From Thermodesulfovibrionales bacterium (lineage in GTDB: Bacteria > Nitrospirota > Thermodesulfovibrionia > Thermodesulfovibrionales > UBA9159), in NCBI GenBank assembly GCA_035686305.1, contig DASRZP010000023.1, positions 1 through 51,692 of the forward strand: a DNA stretch of 51,692 nucleotides, read 5' to 3'. The translations under genes and the position numbers were made by a program. Shown here in pieces: positions 6,053 to 27,661 of the stretch; the stretch's first letter is position 1; every line of letters begins with the position of its first letter. The notes under the pieces were generated by a model. It made no database searches and was not told where the DNA came from. It saw nothing but the letters and a program-made list of their open reading frames with translations.

Positions 6053-7501
6053 ATGATACTCCTCATTTTGCTTTGTGTCCCGGTTGTTGCAGCGACTGTC
6101 CTCGCCTTTATCGGTGACCGGAAAATTGCGCCCGAAATAAACATTCTCGGATCGGCAGCAACGTGTGCCGCAGGTCTCGGCCTGGCACTGCAGGTTTATG
6201 AGCAGGGACCGATGATGGCGGGGGGGAAATTCTTTTTTGTCGATGCCTTCAATGTCTATCTCGCTGTTCTGACCTCGTTTGTATCGATGACAACGGCGAT
6301 CTTCAGCCGGAGATATATGAGGAGGGAGAGGGAGCATGGACGGGTAGGACACGTCGGAATGCGCTTCTATCACGCGATGTTCCAGCTCTTCATCTTCGCC
6401 ATGCTCCTATGCCTTCTGACGAATAATATCGGCATCCTCTGGATAGCAATGGAACTGGCAACCCTGTCAACGGTCCTCCTTGTCTCTCTCTACCGGACGC
6501 CTACCGCCATCGAGGCGGCATGGAAATATTTCATCCTCTGTGGCGTCGGCATTGCACAGGCCCTCTTTGGGACAGTCCTCCTGTATTTTGCCGCTGAAAA
6601 GATTCTCGGCGAAGGCGGCGATGCACTCCTCTGGACAAACCTGAGCCAGGTGAGCGACAAGCTTGAACCGACCGTTCTCTCCCTTGCCTTTGTCTTTCTC
6701 ATGGTAGGGTATGGGACAAAGGTTGGGCTCGTGCCGCTCCACAACTGGCTTCCTGACGCCCACAGCGAGGGTCCCACACCGATCTCCGCCGTACTGTCGG
6801 GCCTTCTCTTGAATATCGCGCTCTATGCCCTCGTGAGGTGTAAGGTGCTTGTTGACGGTTCTACGCACACTCACCACGCGGGGAATATCATGATGGGATT
6901 CGGTCTTCTCTCGATCCTTGTCGCCTCCTTCTCCCTCCTGCGACAGAAGGACATCAAGCGCATGTTCTCCTATTCATCCATAGAGCACATGGGGATCGCG
7001 ACCTTTGCCTTCGGCCTCGGCGGCCCGATAGCGACATTCGGCGCGCTCCTTCACATGCTCGTCCATAGCCTGGCAAAGTCTGCGATATTCTTTACCGTGG
7101 GCCATGCCTCGCAGATGCACTGGACACAGGAGATGGACAAGATAAAAGGCCTTTTTAAAGGCAACCCTCTTGTCGGCTGGGGGATGATGTTCGGAGTCAT
7201 GGCGATCGTCGGCATGCCGCCCTTCGGCATCTTTACGAGCGAGTTTCTCATCCTCACTGCGACCATAAAGGATGCGCCTCTGCTGACGCCATTCCTCCTT
7301 TTAGGAGTGGGTGTGGCCTTTGCCGCACTTTTCAGGAGGGTCCAGCCGATGGTGGCAGGAGAAGTGCCGACGTATCAGCACCCGATGAAAGTGGCCCATG
7401 TGCCTGTCGTGCTTCATATGGCGATTGTCTTGGGAATAGGGCTTTATCTCCCCGAGTTCCTTAACCGGTGGTTTTACACAGCGGTGGGTTTGCTGAAATG
7501 A
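6053..7501 (+). CDS. HyfF-like (NuoN/NuoM-type) proton channel subunit
   Basis: A 482-residue second antiporter-like subunit of the complex. About fourteen helices are seen; the Proton_antipo core at about 115-400 has LWIAMELATLST, the Lys/His run GTKVGLVPLHNWLPDAHSEGP, SYSSIEHMGIA and HSLAKSAIFFTVGH. The presence of two different antiporter-type subunits, here and in the HyfB-like gene, matches hyf and Ehr complexes. A 48-base gap from the HyfE-like gene carries a weak purine-rich ribosome site. Its TGA overlaps the ATG of the large-subunit gene. It should contribute a second ion-translocation path in the inner membrane. Confidence 0.9.
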   Translation: MILLILLCVPVVAATVLAFIGDRKIAPEINILGSAATCAAGLGLALQVYEQGPMMAGGKFFFVDAFNVYLAVLTSFVSMTTAIFSRRYMRREREHGRVGHVGMRFYHAMFQLFIFAMLLCLLTNNIGILWIAMELATLSTVLLVSLYRTPTAIEAAWKYFILCGVGIAQALFGTVLLYFAAEKILGEGGDALLWTNLSQVSDKLEPTVLSLAFVFLMVGYGTKVGLVPLHNWLPDAHSEGPTPISAVLSGLLLNIALYALVRCKVLVDGSTHTHHAGNIMMGFGLLSILVASFSLLRQKDIKRMFSYSSIEHMGIATFAFGLGGPIATFGALLHMLVHSLAKSAIFFTVGHASQMHWTQEMDKIKGLFKGNPLVGWGMMFGVMAIVGMPPFGIFTSEFLILTATIKDAPLLTPFLLLGVGVAFAALFRRVQPMVAGEVPTYQHPMKVAHVPVVLHMAIVLGIGLYLPEFLNRWFYTAVGLLK

Positions 7502-21637: not shown

Positions 21638-24600
21638 CTAAGGCGTAAACACGACATCCACCCAGTAGTTGGCTCCACCTTTACCGGCCGTCGGCTGATT
21701 CGGGAAACTGCTGCTTGAACTGTATTTATAGACACCGTTGTAGCCATCCGTCCCGTCCTGCAAGGCCCGAAGGGGTGGATTGTAAACGCTGGAAGTGGCG
21801 AATGACGTACCGTCCCAGGCATAATGCCCGGTATTCGTATGATAGGATGCAACATACGTCATGTTCGCCGTGATCGCAACAGGGTTCGTCAAGGTAGCCT
21901 GCTGCCAGCCTGAGGTTGTCTCATTGGTGAAGGTCACGCTCCCAAGGAGTGTTCCCGTGCTCGTCCAGAGATTGCCGATATGGGTGCCGGTGTTCCCCGC
22001 TCCCTTGTAAAAGCGTATTCCTGTGATATAGCCGTTCGTATCAGACCGGAATTTCACCCCCACTTCCACGGCATTGAGGTCATTGACCGATGTGTAGGTC
22101 GGTGTCACTGTGTTACTCCAGATGCTATACGTAGAGGTCCTGAGGGTAAAGGTGGCGGTGCATGTCTTGGGAGCGGTCATAGTTACCATTGTTGAATTGC
22201 TTGTACCGGAACAGTCTCCGCTCCAAGAACTGAAGACATAGCCGGTGTTGGACGCAGCGCTCAGGCTAAGCGCCGCACTTGAATCATAAAAGCCGCTGCT
22301 GGGGCTAATACTACCAGCCCCCGACGGGCTTACTGAGGTGGTAAGTTCATATTGAGTCGTAAAATTGGCAGTGTACGTCATCGCCGATGCTGGCGTTATA
22401 ATCGTATGCGTTTGTGGACCATTGTCACTCCATGAAGAAAATGCATATTGTGTTCCTGGCCCACCATCTTTGGGAGAGGTTACACTGAGCGCGTGGTTAG
22501 AGCCTTCTGGCCAGTAGAAGGTCTTAGGGGCTGTATAGGTAGTGCCATCCACAGTGATCAGGATTCCGGAAGGAGCAGTGGTTATAGTGAACGGAAGAAT
22601 TGTAGGGTACTCGTAGGCACCCATATCTGTTATGGCCATACCATCACCGTTTCCATCCGATGGTCTGGGGTATCCCATAATATCAGATGTGGGAGCACCA
22701 TCATTTGTCCCAGTATCGATGCAGGGTGAGCCCGCGGTCAATCGGAAGTCGCCTGCAGCAGCGTTTACAAAGAGTGGATCTGCACTGATATTGCCTCCTG
22801 AGTCAGTATAGGTTGCTCCTGTGATATCTCCTATGTCGGAGTATGAGATGGTTATACTTGGCGGACAAGTTGACCACGGTTGGCAAACATCATTTATGAA
22901 TAAGTTATGCGCGCTATTGCCCCATATTATGCTATTAACGGCGGTCATTTCGAGCCCCTCTCGCAGACCGTAATGACCGTGTTCATCAAACCAACCCAAT
23001 GTTTCAACCCCATTGGAGGAGTTCTTAACAATTGTGTTGTTCACCAAAGTCACGCCCGTATAAGAGTCGCCTCCCCTGTACGATGTGACATATATCCCTA
23101 CACCGTTTCCATATATGACGCTGTTAGTGAGGGTTCCAAGCGCGGTTTTGGGTCCTATCGCAGGCTCAAAAAATGAAGAGATGACTATACCGTAATTGGT
23201 ATGGCCGGTAATAATACTATTAGTTAGTGAAAGGCCAGCATTGTTACAAAGTATTCCGATACTTCCATTTCGGATTGTAAAACCACTGACACTAACGGTG
23301 ACGTCGAAAATATCAAAGACTGTGTCTTTAAGGCCATCGATAATAGTTAGAGAGGGGTCTTGAGACCTTGATGTAAATGTAGAATCCCAACCGCCTTCAA
23401 GAGTCGCACCTATTCCGCCCAACTGTATATATTCATAGTATATCCCTTGAGCAACCTTAATTGTTCTTGACCCAGAGACGGACCAATCAATGCTGTCAAG
23501 TGCAGTCTGAATCGAGGAAAAACATGGCGTGTTCCCGCCACACGAACCCTGTGGCGCTACAAACAGGGTTGCAGCCGATGTCTTCGTCAAGGATTCCAGT
23601 ACAGCATTGATTCCTCCTTTATCATATGGCTCAGTAACTGTCACAAGGTCGGCGTCTGGGAAATTCGTCTTGTTGTTGTACCATTGGCCCTTATATTTGT
23701 ATTGTGGGGGGGGGGTATAAGGATTGAATCCATGACCTTCTTGAAAAAAGACCTTATAGCTTCCCGTCGGTATCCCCAAGATTGTGTAATAGCCCTGCTC
23801 GTCAGCTTTAGTCGAATACCATGCTGTACCGTTATAAGCGGATATCTGAACAGGGATGCCAAGGCCGTCGGCATTTGTGACCCTTCCAGATATACTGCCG
23901 AGCCTTCTTAATACGGCATCTATCCCTGTTGTTGCATATGGCGCAGTTACAGTGATCAAGTCGGCACTACTTTGATCTGCCTTGTCATTGTACCATTCTG
24001 TTAAATATCCCAGTTTATCAAACCTGACTATATAGCTTCCATTCGGAAGAACTGCACTGTAATAGCCATTCGCATCTGTCCAAGCACCGTAATACGTCGA
24101 GACGCCATCGTATATATCAACATACACGTCTTGTATACCTATGCCGTTCGCATCAGTCACTCGCCCTGTAATGCCTCCACTCGCAAGAACGCTTGAAAGT
24201 TTAACGGTCTGCCAGAGAGACGCATTCTCAAAAGCGCCTGTAGTAATGTTCGGCCACATAACAGATGTGTAAGAGTCGGCATTTTTATCATTGACAGCAA
24301 AACTCATTCGTAGGGCTGAATCAGCTGCCGGCGCATTGGAAAGTCCGATAGAAGTCCAAGGGATTCTTATCTCAACAGTATACTTTGTATCAGTGTCCGT
24401 ATTGTTGTTGATCGTCCCGTATACTTTGACCGCTGACTGCCAGGTGCCGTTCCATGATGAAGTGGGCGTCCCCGAAGCGGTGCCCCGAGAATCATATTGG
24501 GTATTCAAGATGTTCACGATGCCATGATAATCATCAGGAAGCATGTAAGGCACATTAGGATTGCCTGATCCTCCACCGTCACCGAGGGTGTCTATGAACC

Positions 24601-25696
24601 ATTCTACCGAGTCGTCATTCCAGACACCACCGTCTCTCGTCGTAACCGAAGCATTTAATTGCGTGTCGGTTACCTCATAAGCGAGATAGAGCGCCTGATC
24701 ATCCCAAAGGGCTCTGACGGTAGCGGTATTCCCACCTGTGGGAAAAGAGAGCGCCATGGTATTTGCATCCTGGTACTCTGATAAGTCCCCGTCAATGATT
24801 GGCGGCGTCCCAGTTTTCAAAATGCCGAAGGCCCCATCGAACTTCTGGATGCGATGGTTAAACGTATCGGCAACATAGAGATTGCCGGAGTTGTCCACCG
24901 CCACTCCCGACGGATAATAAAAATGGCAGTTGTCATAACCGGCAGCACCAGTCACCCCAAGGGTGCCGAGATAGGCCCCCACAGAGTTAAACTTCTGGAT
25001 TCGCTGGTTCCACGTGTCGGCAACATAGAGATTGCCCGAGTTGTCCACCGCCACTCCTGATGGAAGATTAAAATGGCTGTCGTCAGAACCGGAAATACCA
25101 AGCGTGCTGAGATAAACCCCTGTGGAATTGAATTTCTCGATTCTATCGTTAATTGTATCGGCGACATAGAGATTGCCGGAGTTATCCACCGCCACTCCCA
25201 GTGGATCATTAAAGAAACCCAAGGTGCTGACATAGACCCCAGCCGAATTGAATTTCTGGATGCGCCAGTTATACGTATCCGCAACATAGAGATTGCCGGA
25301 GTTGTCCACCGCCACTCCTGACGGAAGATTAAAATGGCTGTTGTCAGAACCGGAAATACCACTCTCCCCAAGGGTGCTGACATACTGAATCGACGTGGCC
25401 GATACATCCGCATTCATTATTCCACTGATGAATAAAGCAAGGAGAATTGCTTCTGCCATGCGCAAGAAAACCGCCTTGAATAAAGCCACTCCACAGTAAG
25501 ATACAAGTGACGAAAACGTAAGCCTACGAGCTGTGTTTAATGACAGAAATCTGCGCCAGATCTTTCTCCCTCGCATGGTGGGGCCTGTGAGAGCTTCCTT
25601 CTTCCCTGGAATAGCGGTTTTTGCTCTGGCTGATGTCGCCGGGCATAGATTACTGTAAAGAACACTTCCTCCCATTTCCTCTTTTCCCCTTTTCAT
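21638..25696 (-). CDS. Giant multidomain secreted protein (NHL, CBM9-like, beta-helix, DUF4082)
   Basis: A 1352-residue extracellular or surface protein. After an unusually long N-terminal region (about 80 residues) comes a signal-like segment MAEAILLALFISGIMNADVSA read in two halves, then four NHL repeats (105-287, AVDNSGNLYVADT), a CBM9/DOMON-like domain (about 290-490), two carboxypeptidase-regulatory-like domains (about 505-660), a right-handed beta-helix ending in a choice-of-anchor-Q-like GSPCIDTGTNDG (about 675-945), two InlB/Big-like bacterial repeats (about 960-1130) and a C-terminal DUF4082 domain. ATG 25696 follows AAGGGGG; ATG 25459 directly before the signal is the alternative. 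Likely binds glycans or cells; no enzyme site seen. Confidence 0.85.
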   Translation of the reverse strand: MKRGKEEMGGSVLYSNLCPATSARAKTAIPGKKEALTGPTMRGRKIWRRFLSLNTARRLTFSSLVSYCGVALFKAVFLRMAEAILLALFISGIMNADVSATSIQYVSTLGESGISGSDNSHFNLPSGVAVDNSGNLYVADTYNWRIQKFNSAGVYVSTLGFFNDPLGVAVDNSGNLYVADTINDRIEKFNSTGVYLSTLGISGSDDSHFNLPSGVAVDNSGNLYVADTWNQRIQKFNSVGAYLGTLGVTGAAGYDNCHFYYPSGVAVDNSGNLYVADTFNHRIQKFDGAFGILKTGTPPIIDGDLSEYQDANTMALSFPTGGNTATVRALWDDQALYLAYEVTDTQLNASVTTRDGGVWNDDSVEWFIDTLGDGGGSGNPNVPYMLPDDYHGIVNILNTQYDSRGTASGTPTSSWNGTWQSAVKVYGTINNNTDTDTKYTVEIRIPWTSIGLSNAPAADSALRMSFAVNDKNADSYTSVMWPNITTGAFENASLWQTVKLSSVLASGGITGRVTDANGIGIQDVYVDIYDGVSTYYGAWTDANGYYSAVLPNGSYIVRFDKLGYLTEWYNDKADQSSADLITVTAPYATTGIDAVLRRLGSISGRVTNADGLGIPVQISAYNGTAWYSTKADEQGYYTILGIPTGSYKVFFQEGHGFNPYTPPPQYKYKGQWYNNKTNFPDADLVTVTEPYDKGGINAVLESLTKTSAATLFVAPQGSCGGNTPCFSSIQTALDSIDWSVSGSRTIKVAQGIYYEYIQLGGIGATLEGGWDSTFTSRSQDPSLTIIDGLKDTVFDIFDVTVSVSGFTIRNGSIGILCNNAGLSLTNSIITGHTNYGIVISSFFEPAIGPKTALGTLTNSVIYGNGVGIYVTSYRGGDSYTGVTLVNNTIVKNSSNGVETLGWFDEHGHYGLREGLEMTAVNSIIWGNSAHNLFINDVCQPWSTCPPSITISYSDIGDITGATYTDSGGNISADPLFVNAAAGDFRLTAGSPCIDTGTNDGAPTSDIMGYPRPSDGNGDGMAITDMGAYEYPTILPFTITTAPSGILITVDGTTYTAPKTFYWPEGSNHALSVTSPKDGGPGTQYAFSSWSDNGPQTHTIITPASAMTYTANFTTQYELTTSVSPSGAGSISPSSGFYDSSAALSLSAASNTGYVFSSWSGDCSGTSNSTMVTMTAPKTCTATFTLRTSTYSIWSNTVTPTYTSVNDLNAVEVGVKFRSDTNGYITGIRFYKGAGNTGTHIGNLWTSTGTLLGSVTFTNETTSGWQQATLTNPVAITANMTYVASYHTNTGHYAWDGTSFATSSVYNPPLRALQDGTDGYNGVYKYSSSSSFPNQPTAGKGGANYWVDVVFTP
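24871..25320 (-). repeat. Four tandem NHL-repeat coding units
   Basis: A near-identical block coding for VAVDNSGNLYVAD recurs at about 24871, 25021, 25162 and 25282, spaced 150, 141 and 120 bases. Differences in spacing are whole codons. High DNA identity suggests recent expansion or conversion of propeller blades; four blades are fewer than the usual six. Confidence 0.8.
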
Positions 25697-25897
25697 GTCT
25701 TCATCCCCCTTGCATCGTTCTATATTGGCTATAAGTGTCACTCAGTGCATCGCTGACATCGCAAAGTGCCCATGTTGCTGATGATGGTGAAACAACAAGA
25801 AGTTAGGAATTCCCGATGAATTTTGAACGCCATCTTTCCATCAGTTTTCGGGCTACTCTTGATCAACGCTTGGCTCCCCCTTCACATCAAGAGAAAC

Positions 25898-25940
25898 AAA
25901 AAAACCGAGCATACCTCAGGTTACCCCTTCGGCAGCTCGG
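25898..25940 (-). terminator. Intrinsic terminator in the leader of the giant secreted protein
   Basis: On the minus strand CCGAGC (25935-25940) pairs with GCTCGG (25905-25910), with additional inner pairing possible, followed at once by seven T. It lies about 200 bases before the preferred start at 25696 in the same direction, with no complete gene just upstream, so it acts as a leader terminator (attenuator) more likely than as the end of a gene. Its 5' stem strand lies inside the GEMM-like sequence. Confidence 0.55.
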
Positions 25941-26005
25941 CCATCTTTTTAAAAAGATCCGCTGCTTTCCGCCCCCTCCTCAGTTGGAAAACAGAAAGTC
26001 GGCCT
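25932..26005 (-). promoter_or_regulatory. Possible degenerate GEMM (cyclic dinucleotide) riboswitch
   Basis: On the minus strand the run GGGGGCGGAAAGCAGCGGAT, a T/A-rich hairpin (ATCTTTTT-AAAAAGAT) and GGCCGAGCTGCCG follow the order of the 3' half of GEMM-I aptamers (GGG-CGCAAAGC, P3 hairpin, GCC-GG-TTGCCG-like strand). The 5' half with GGCAAACC is not recognisable, and the AAAGC block differs by one base from CGCAAAGC. The closing strand CCGAGC is shared with the terminator stem, the usual arrangement for switching. If real, ligand binding would prevent termination and turn on the secreted protein. Confidence 0.3.
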
Positions 26006-26257
26006 AATGAATGCTTTTCTTCTCATCTCCTATCTCTCTCTTTTGACCTTGATGTTCAAAACTGTCCCTTCGCAAAGACCGGTGTAGCTGAAGTTTGCTG
26101 TGGCTTCGCTCACAACAATCATGTTCAGAAGTTGTGCTTAGTCAGGTCTTTCACTCCCCCTGAGGATATCTCACGACGCTGAGCTTAAGGTCTTCCACCG
26201 GCGGCGTCTGAGAGCGCTGGCTATACGACCAGTGACTTCTCCCCATTTAAGATCAGC

Positions 26258-26365
26258 TTACTCAATATCAACTCTTCTCGCAACTTTCTTGTGACGAACG
26301 GGCGGTTTTCGGTGACGAACGGACTTGACGAGGGTTCCCTTCTCGTCCCTGTCCGCATCGGTCAT
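26258..26365 (-). CDS. Possible basic micro-protein, unknown
   Basis: A 35-codon ORF starting MTDADRDEKG and ending in a strongly basic tail with two similar blocks (SVRHRKPPVRHKKVARR). A GGGAGA stretch precedes the ATG. The DNA under the tail contains a direct repeat GTGACGAACGG. I do not recognise it; it may be chance or the tail of a lost gene. Confidence 0.2.
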   Translation of the reverse strand: MTDADRDEKGTLVKSVRHRKPPVRHKKVARRVDIE

Positions 26366-26478
26366 CTTTAATGGTGTCTCCCTACCTTCTATTAAACGAA
26401 TGAATTCACACGAAGACCCGGAGATAATCCTTTATTCCTGTCTCTTGCTCCAGTTTGCTGAGAACCTGTTCCTGCGTT

Positions 26479-26508
26479 TTGACAGGGAGATTCTTGATGT
26501 GCTAAATT
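26479..26508 (+). promoter_or_regulatory. Candidate promoter for hicBA, possibly giving a leaderless mRNA
   Basis: TTGACA (26479-26484) and TAAATT (26503-26508) with 18-base spacing. A start site seven bases after the -10 would fall on the hicB ATG at 26515, and no ribosome site is present before that ATG. Confidence 0.45.
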
Positions 26509-26514
26509 TCTACT

Positions 26515-26712
26515 ATGAAATACACAGTAGTCGTTAACAAGACCGAATACGGATATGATGTACACTGTCCGGCGTTGCCCGGATGCCACAGCCAAGGTGA
26601 AACGCTTGAAGAAGCCATCGAGAATATCAAAGATGCCATCACGACGTACCTTCACATGATTGAAGAGGAGACAAAGGACTCCACTGTGTATCATGTAGAG
26701 GTACCCGCATAG
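26515..26712 (+). CDS. hicB: HicB-family antitoxin
   Basis: A 65-residue HicB-like protein: a partial RNase-H-like fold with YTVVVNKTEYGYDVHCPALPGCHSQGETLEEAIENIKDAI read in order as strand, strand, PGC-x-x-G-x-T-x-x-E-A motif and helix. This is the short HicB form whose C-terminal DNA-binding domain is reduced. It should neutralise the HicA mRNase made from the next gene, one base downstream. The order antitoxin first is the less common hicBA arrangement and is known in the family. No Shine-Dalgarno site is seen before the ATG. Confidence 0.88.
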   Translation: MKYTVVVNKTEYGYDVHCPALPGCHSQGETLEEAIENIKDAITTYLHMIEEETKDSTVYHVEVPA

Positions 26713-26713
26713 C

Positions 26714-26923
26714 GTGATTTTCACTGATGTCTCTGCTGAGCGGGCAGTAAGAGCATTCAGCAAGGTTGGATTCAGAACAGTCACTCGCGGCAAGCACATC
26801 GGCATGTCCGACGGGACTCACCGTATAACGATTCCTGACCATAAAAGACTGAATCCCTATACCCTCAAAGCTATCATCAAAGATGCCGGGCTGACCGACG
26901 AGGAATTCAAAGAACTTCTTTAG
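26714..26923 (+). CDS. hicA: HicA-family mRNA interferase toxin
   Basis: A 69-residue toxin of the HicA double-stranded-RNA-binding fold. It starts at GTG 26714 (IFTDVSAERAVRAFSK), carries VGFRTVTRGKHIGM with the conserved catalytic His, then THRITIPDHKRLNPYTLKAIIKDAGLT, which matches the family P-N/D-H-x-x-L-x-x-x-T-L-x-x-I-L core and final helix. It would cleave mRNA when free of HicB. It appears intact, and it follows hicB with one base between stop and start. Confidence 0.88.
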   Translation: MIFTDVSAERAVRAFSKVGFRTVTRGKHIGMSDGTHRITIPDHKRLNPYTLKAIIKDAGLTDEEFKELL

Positions 26924-26963
26924 CTCCAAACTCTGTTCGAACGTTATCCCCTTGCTACCCGCA

Positions 26964-26988
26964 CATCCCCTCCAAGGGTGAGGGGATG
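26964..26988. other. Perfect 8-bp hairpin after hicA
   Basis: CATCCCCT and AGGGGATG flank a nine-base loop. No T-run follows, so termination is uncertain; it may instead be a remnant of an inserted repeat between hicA and the decayed antitoxin. Confidence 0.35.
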
Positions 26989-27225
26989 ATAAGGACTGGC
27001 TTATAAGGTTTGACAAAGCGCTCAAGGCCATACGCGCCAAGACCGCAGGATTTTCGACAGAGAAAATCGAAGCGGATGTCGAAGAAGCTGTAAAAGAAGT
27101 TCGCAGAAGAAGACGTGCCTGTTAAGGCTGTCGTAGACACAAACATTTGGGTTTCCGCCTTGGTAGCTCCTCTTGGAACCGCCGCATTACCGTCATCTCC
27201 CTGTCAAAGTTTCTGGCTCTCATAA
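26982..27225 (+). pseudogene. Decayed antitoxin/PIN-domain toxin pair
   Basis: Two overlapping fragments. Frame one ends at TAA 27125 and reads DWLIRFDKALKAIRAK then STEKIEADVEEAVKEVRRRR, the usual C-terminus of antitoxins that precede PIN toxins; its N-terminus is missing behind a stop at 26979. The second, GTG 27115 to TAA 27225, reads VKAVVDTNIWVSALVAPLGT and then 13 unrelated residues, a PIN toxin cut off after the first catalytic Asp. The ten-base overlap is the normal toxin-antitoxin layout. It is a clear relic; a homologous but intact pair stands at 48738-49474. Confidence 0.7.
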
Positions 27226-27232
27226 GTAAGTC

Positions 27233-27661
27233 CTAACCCTTCCCCTTCCAACGCTCCCTAAGGAGACCCATAGCCCTCTTTGAAACGGGAACAGGGCCAA
27301 GCTTCTTGCTGTCGAAGAAGGCTGTCCCTGTCCCATTCGCTTCCTTTCTCAGCAGAGCTACGCGGTCCGGATTCAGGGCATAACTTCGGTGGACCCTAAG
27401 GAGACTTGCTCCTGCGTACTTCTTGATAATCTCTTTAAGAACGCCCCGGATGTGGAATGTCTTTTCATCGGTAGAGATCCTGCAGTAGTTGCCCTCGCAG
27501 CCGATGAAGCAGACCGTCTCAGGGTCAACAAAGGACACACCGCCTTTCTCGACGATGGGCAGCCTGACGTGGTCCGTCACTCTCCGCTTCGGGAAGTGCT
27601 TTGGCGGCGTCACTTCTGAGAGGGTCGCGACAAAGAGACGGGTCGGGGGAGAGGTCTTCAA
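27233..27661 (-). CDS. LytTR-type DNA-binding regulator
   Basis: A 142-residue protein whose residues from about 45 form a LytTR domain: VSFVDPETVCFIGCEGNYCRI in pieces, then the RGVLKEIIKKY helix, LLRVHRSYALNPDRV with the conserved R-x-H-R-S-x-x-x-N block and the final PVSKRAMGLLRE. LytTR domains bind direct-repeat DNA and usually follow a receiver domain. None is present here, so it is either a stand-alone regulator or a fragment. A TTG start is used for the full ORF; a GTG at about residue 28 is an alternative. Its target is unknown. Confidence 0.8.
   Translation of the reverse strand: MKTSPPTRLFVATLSEVTPPKHFPKRRVTDHVRLPIVEKGGVSFVDPETVCFIGCEGNYCRISTDEKTFHIRGVLKEIIKKYAGASLLRVHRSYALNPDRVALLRKEANGTGTAFFDSKKLGPVPVSKRAMGLLRERWKGKG

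Follow-up and report, generated by a model that had tools for sequence, protein, structure and literature searches.

A probable relic of a c-di-GMP-I riboswitch with a retained terminator half in the leader of a surface-protein gene of a Thermodesulfovibrionales bacterium

Introduction

What remains of a riboswitch when only the half that forms its terminator can be recognised? A preliminary description of a contig from an uncultured Thermodesulfovibrionales bacterium noticed, in the leader of a gene for a very large protein, a terminator stem with a run of seven T whose 5′ strand lies within a sequence resembling the 3′ half of GEMM-I aptamers. The 5′ half of the aptamer was not recognisable, and a decayed element or a variant class was proposed. 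Here, we ask what this element is, which of its parts are kept, and how the leader would work. The window is the whole stretch that was analysed, namely one contig of 51,692 nt, and it belongs to a genome of 3.23 Mb in 147 contigs that is 97.66% complete and 0.93% contaminated.

The available passages of PMC3764141 give G20, C22, A23, A25, G32, A35, G42, C44, G45, A47-A49, C59, G79, G83, G90 and C92 as conserved residues of this class and describe a GNRA loop of P2 that docks on P3. In the accessible part of PMC4744006, the ligand contacts are G20, A47 and C92, and earlier work is cited in which mutation of G20 caused a 30,000-fold loss. For the pilM GEMM-I riboswitch of Geobacter metallireducens, the portion of PMC9262584 available describes an aptamer and a terminator that are mutually exclusive, with ON logic.

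Results

A terminator overlaps the 3′ half of a c-di-GMP-I riboswitch

On the minus strand, the arms GGCCGAGCTGCC (25942-25931) and GGTATGCTCGG (25915-25905) form a terminator hairpin at 25905..25942, which was found by the terminator scan and in the folds and whose helix occurs in other copies, and the seven-T tract follows at 25898..25904. A simple terminator scan of 25500-27000 on both strands gave 3 sites against 0.9 expected, which by itself is weak evidence for a terminator. The identity of both the terminator and the riboswitch is settled by homology to a model of the 3′ half plus terminator (R1), which was built from 19 other copies with the window copy excluded. This model matched the unit common to the relatives at 25891..25981 on the minus strand with 95.3 bits (E 1.6e-20 in a search of the window), and the best relative in the family genomes showed 81% identity across 89 nt (blastn, E 1.8e-17). 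Thus, the terminator and the GEMM-like 3′ half noticed in this leader are confirmed.

Few 3′ halves of the family are preserved as well as that of the window. When compared with 35 other copies this half scored 103, while the highest of 300 shuffles scored 45. Among n=48 matches of R1 in seven family genomes it ranked sixth by bits and fifth by E-value, and most copies ranked above or around it had trained the model, which the window copy had not. C44, G45 and the J2/3 residues A47-A49 are present in GGGGGCGGAAAGC, as aligned to R1 and RF03167, and the kept CGGAAA of the P2/J2-3 strand at 25966..25971 places three A (25968-25966) at the A47-A49 positions, with residue roles taken from the available part of PMC3764141 and the Vc2 residue numbers mapped onto these copies by us. 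P3 and C92 of J3/1 are also present (GCAGCGG...CCGAGCTGCCGAAG), as in the sister copies. In the constrained fold, P3 occupies 25932..25965 on the minus strand, where GCAGC (25965-25961) pairs with GCTGC (25936-25932) around an inner hairpin ATCTTTTT/AAAAAGAT, and it is the competitor of the terminator.

The best Rfam match in 25600-26500 was RF03167 (c-di-GMP-I-GGC), which aligned over its full model length at 26012-25927 on the minus strand with 31.3 bits (E 2.9e-5); the six remaining matches listed were snoRNA models with E of at least 1.2. RF01051 (GEMM-I) aligned at 25928..26013 on the same strand with 31.7 bits (E 3.0e-4 in a whole-genome search). The match that the preliminary description had asked of RF01051 and related models does exist, but it reaches neither gathering cut-off (35 bits for RF01051 and 59 bits for RF03167), and for this reason a default Rfam scan of the window is empty. 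We take the "GGC" of c-di-GMP-I-GGC to mean a G at the A47 position; the window has an A there, as do six distinct sister sites that were aligned. Six copies of the same genome (L009-L014) fit RF03167 better than RF01051 despite an A at the A47 position, and the P2 pair next to it has become C-G in 5 of these 6.

The 5′ half is at random level

Where the 5′ strand of P1, J1/2 with G20, and the 5′ strand of P2 with its GNRA loop belong, the window has unrelated sequence (25982..26020, minus strand) by both shuffles and motif score. The window 5′ half scored 16 against 35 other 5′ halves, a value reached by 287 of 300 shuffles, so that no similarity is detectable; this comparison counts one site in two rows, includes five rows from other families of the order and some copies that are degenerate themselves, and lacks one copy (L079:1074), which was dropped because its core mismatched the locator word. 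With a 17-nt motif of the conserved 5′ strand, the window scored -8.1, which is the second lowest of 124 elements (median 21.6) and is random level, being reached by 57.8% of 5000 random pieces. The motif was trained on 26 of the scored copies, which it therefore favours; the window copy was not among them. The 124 are those scored of 125 elements (one has too short an upstream sequence), of which the taxonomic family contributes 41 and the rest of the order 84, the latter taken among the matches listed; family matches G002:C414, G002:C476, G002:C277:3879, G003:C236 and G005:C72, two reverse-strand matches, the terminator-only piece G002:C258 and weaker matches outside the family were left out. 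Thus, the 5′ half was rightly described as unrecognisable.

The individual residues agree with these scores. By motif score and Rfam alignment, the J1/2 strand with G20 and the conserved C22, A23 and A25 is not found in the window. The Rfam alignment puts a G and CC at positions 20-22, whereas they would not fall there if CCGAC is aligned by eye with the P1 strand of the sisters; neither alignment gives a counterpart for A23, A25 or the loop. In place of a GNRA-capped P2 that docks into P3, folding predicts the loop AACUGA, on a hairpin that takes up the core. The window therefore keeps the C44-A49 stretch, P3, the C92 position and the terminator, without the 5′ strand and the loop.

The change from one state to the other is sharp. 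A blastn search with a 161-nt query in the 7 family genomes gave 38 non-self matches, all of which start at query position 59 or later (window position 25982 or lower). For the 95 nt at 25981-26075, a search of 176 genomes of the order gave, besides the self match, only short matches in 12 other genomes with E of at least 7.4e-5, and the best of these mostly covers a run rich in purines that precedes the 5′ half. In the same genomes, the 418 nt at 25983-26400 gave no non-self match at E 1e-4. A 5′ half at random level combined with a 3′ half of family grade suggests that the 5′ half was lost by one abrupt replacement near 25982 rather than by even decay.

A split riboswitch with its 5′ half further upstream was also considered. 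AAAGSYMAAMCC with at most one mismatch has 2 matches in the window against 2.98 expected, at 7310 and 29832, neither within 3 kb of the leader, and Rfam gave no second c-di-GMP match within 25600-26500.

The terminator competes with P3 in the window and in intact copies

In the terminator-bearing copies, the strand GGCCGAGCTGCCGAAGG serves twice, as the 3′ strand of P3 and P1 and as the terminator's 5′ arm. In the window, 25942-25931 likewise belongs to P3/P1 and to the terminator, an overlap of the pilM type. Constrained folds of the window gave -26.6 kcal/mol for the terminator form versus -17.2 kcal/mol for the P3 form, so the terminator is favoured by 9.4 kcal/mol, compared with 7.6 to 13.3 kcal/mol in five intact copies. 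Across the 19 other copies, which were chosen by similarity to the window 3′ half, the terminator helix pairs in 95.1% of cells, and in 30-46% when it is slid. Pairing is high, but the covariation that had been proposed as a check in relatives is itself weak: a single one of the 13 pairs differs in both of its bases, and among 500 shuffles 34 equal the pairing and 31 the covariation score.

The genome holds ten RF01051 matches, nine over the cut-off (37.9-63.6 bits) and the window copy as the tenth. Six of the nine were folded with their downstream sequence, and 6/6 form a terminator that uses the 3′ strand of P3/P1. The other three (C117, C92 and C83 minus) have no terminator by eye. The terminator-bearing sisters appear to be transcriptional ON switches in these models, and ON control by antitermination is not general in this genome, where 3 of 9 sisters seem to be without a terminator. 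In these three copies (L166, L168 and L169), the riboswitch ends about 28-37 nt before the start codon, and by appearance its P1 strand could pair with the ribosome-binding site, which suggests control at the level of translation. Similar multihaem cytochromes of 414 aa are encoded behind two of the three.

Other copies without a recognisable 5′ half

With RF03167, which has matches in 26 of 61 genomes including this one, 6 of 10 matches in the genome pass the cut-off and the window copy is the weakest. Two more degenerate copies of the same genome, L230:2061-2158 and L231 (G000:C54:10860 and C63:31710), are absent from both Rfam genome searches (RF01051 and RF03167), and their 5′ half is still recognisable.

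Among the 124 scored elements, 15 fall under the 99% random level of the motif. Besides the window, G001:C16:47816-47909, G002:C505:504-574 and G125:C160:7045-7137 are headless by eye, G002:C70 is doubtful, and the remaining ten still show a 5′ half. The 3′ halves of the three other headless copies score 64.5, 36.9 and 59.1 bits, respectively, versus 95.3 bits in the window. The terminator of G125:C160 looks weak. The G002:C505 relic (L233) follows an open reading frame of the same strand at a distance of about 10 nt, suggesting that it is reused as an ordinary gene terminator. These results show that headless copies recur in the order and that, among the headless copies scored, none comes near the window copy in the preservation of its 3′ half.

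Two further variations were seen elsewhere in the order. In L292 (G164:C1:705-806), the J1/2 strand departs from the family while P2, P3 and the terminator look intact, and a strong promoter-like sequence stands before the element. Probable tandem riboswitches, each a pair of c-di-GMP-I-GGC matches on the same strand with about 60-140 nt between them, occur at G036:C12:72257-72491 and 75159-75397, G036:C1:5064-5304 and G051:C151:4588-4904.

The leader lies between a surface-protein gene and a hicBA pair

Downstream of the element lies a gene at 21638..25741 on the minus strand, by Pfam and translation encoding a secreted, probable surface protein of up to 1367 aa with NHL repeats, CBM9, CarboxypepD_reg, an InlB-like repeat and DUF4082. 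Residues at about 95-115 of the listed frame resemble a signal peptide, which makes the start of the gene uncertain; ATG 25696, or a codon inside that, is a more probable start than the GTG of the listed frame. Genes behind other copies of this genome include those for two multihaem cytochrome c proteins, a PEP-CTERM protein, a lipocalin-like protein and an iron-containing alcohol dehydrogenase.

Upstream of the leader, Pfam places a hicB-like antitoxin and a hicA-like toxin (hicBA; PF15919 and PF07927) on the plus strand at 26515-26712 and 26714-26923, and a LytTR DNA-binding-domain protein (PF04397) on the minus strand at 27233-27661. A promoter-like TTGACA-18-TAAATT lies at 26479-26508 directly before the hicBA pair. 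Because hicBA is on the plus strand, the promoter of the leader should lie within 25741-26514, or else the leader would be transcribed by long read-through. A simple scan found no promoter-like site on the minus strand in 25500-27000. In a similar scan with a recognition pattern of our own, 8 of 31 copies, a set that mixes the taxonomic family with other families, reach 9 of 12 consensus matches, and the window reaches 6. Since just 8 of 31 copies have a good site, the silent scan of the window says little, and these counts do not support promoter loss as a mark that separates the window from intact copies.

In another part of the window, a methylthiotransferase-like protein (radical SAM, UPF0004, TRAM) has relatives of which the first 14 of 80 are nearly all from Nitrospirae/Nitrospirota/Thermodesulfovibrionales, with 49-60% identity, and the rest are mostly from Clostridia.

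Discussion

Taken together, these results point to a headless relic of a c-di-GMP-I riboswitch, whose 5′ half is lost and whose terminator half is kept, and we put the probability of this reading at about 0.8. Its origin is ordinary and its state slightly unusual, namely a truncated c-di-GMP-I riboswitch with an intact terminator. In the ancestral state, bound c-di-GMP would have made the 3′ half fold onto the 5′ half, with P1 and the pocket closed and P3 formed, and without ligand the same 3′ strand would have paired downstream into the terminator. In the window, unrelated sequence replaces the 5′ half, so no pocket would form; since nothing would then clamp the aptamer from the 5′ side, termination would be expected by default, and transcripts that enter from upstream should mostly stop at 25898-25904, as at a plain brake. 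Expression of the surface gene would then depend on leak-through or on transcription that begins behind the terminator. The homology of the 3′ half and the terminator, the unrecognisable 5′ half and the strand common to the terminator and P3 are direct observations, from which we infer the loss of c-di-GMP binding, the ancestral direction of the switch and constitutive termination. The ancestral system is in place in the same genome, which has the nine matches over the RF01051 cut-off together with 12 GGDEF matches. Against a relic, the full-length Rfam alignment with a G and CC at G20-C22 may leave some function to the 5′ part, and a dead element would hardly be expected to have a 3′ half so close to perfect, unless the event was recent or termination is under selection.

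Two other readings would leave the 5′ part a function. In the one, which we consider very improbable, it is a remodelled variant riboswitch, in which a new arm CUUUCUG...CC and the core GG..CGGAAAG make a new sensor or protein-binding fold that controls the same, well-kept terminator. The arm and the core can indeed fold into one hairpin, and folds of partial transcripts suggest that the terminator arm could be held by a short GGCC/GGCC pairing while the RNA is being made. However, 269 of 1000 shuffles of the 16-nt arm fold equally well, and 241 to 659 of 1000 do so for four longer arms; because shuffled arms pair as well, we assign no function to this pairing, and a template-switch or selected origin of a hairpin with its arm complementary to the core was rejected for the same reason. 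In 176 genomes the arm pattern occurs in the window and at one unrelated site, in no relative, and the pocket strand and the GNRA loop are gone. With these results and the short, weak matches of the 5′ stretch, the proposal of a new variant class finds no positive evidence, and of the two states first proposed for the element it is decay that is favoured. The second reading, a weakly functional, divergent c-di-GMP-I riboswitch with its 5′ half beyond recognition, draws on the full-length alignments to RF03167 (E 2.9e-5) and RF01051 (E 3.0e-4), with the G and CC at 20-22. It is very improbable, given that A23, A25 and the GNRA loop, conserved according to the available text of PMC3764141, are absent and that the 5′ part does not rise above shuffles or random pieces (57.8% of 5000 match its motif score).

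The break could also be an assembly artefact, in which two unrelated pieces were joined at about 25982 in a metagenome-derived contig. The abruptness of the break, the 418 nt upstream without a non-self match at E 1e-4 in 176 genomes, and the 147 contigs, completeness and contamination of the genome would fit such a joint. Yet the longest exact word between 25880-26020 and 22 overlapping loci of the same genome, a part of it rather than the whole, is 22 nt and lies inside the 3′ half, away from the break, which makes a misjoin driven by a repeat at the break unlikely, and we hold an artefact to be the least probable of these explanations.

A relic as described here is related to known systems by halves. 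With RF01051 and RF03167 it is homologous in the 3′ half (the A47-A49, C44/G45, P3 and C92 positions), and with the c-di-GMP-I sister copies of the same genome it shares a terminator that uses the 3′ strand; unlike the two Rfam families, it scores under both cut-offs and has no G20 strand, no P2 5′ arm and no GNRA loop. Judged by these features, the window element would not belong to the family as a sensor, and its terminator half appears to resemble those of the sisters by architecture. As far as the accessible text of PMC9262584 goes, the pilM riboswitch likewise builds its terminator with strands of the 3′ side of the aptamer, but it senses c-GAMP with a complete aptamer, and the window lacks the 5′ strand. 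A literature search on decayed, truncated or lost aptamers, by titles and openings of abstracts and with subscription journals mostly outside it, gave no riboswitch that has lost its aptamer, and one on c-di-GMP riboswitches in Nitrospirae found none.

The window copy clearly marks one step by which a riboswitch dies or is converted, with the ligand-binding half replaced and the switching half still at family quality. It is possible, though rather doubtful, that headless riboswitch terminators are a recurrent, selected state, in which the sensor half is shed, the terminator is kept as a fixed or differently controlled attenuator, and the surface protein stands outside the c-di-GMP regulon. Were termination under selection, expression platforms would outlive their sensors, and fixed attenuators may hide in leaders that score under the Rfam cut-offs. 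The finding cautions against annotating the surface-protein gene as controlled by c-di-GMP, and it identifies one likely ex-member of a sizeable c-di-GMP riboswitch regulon, with cytochromes and secreted proteins, in an uncultured lineage of Nitrospirota.
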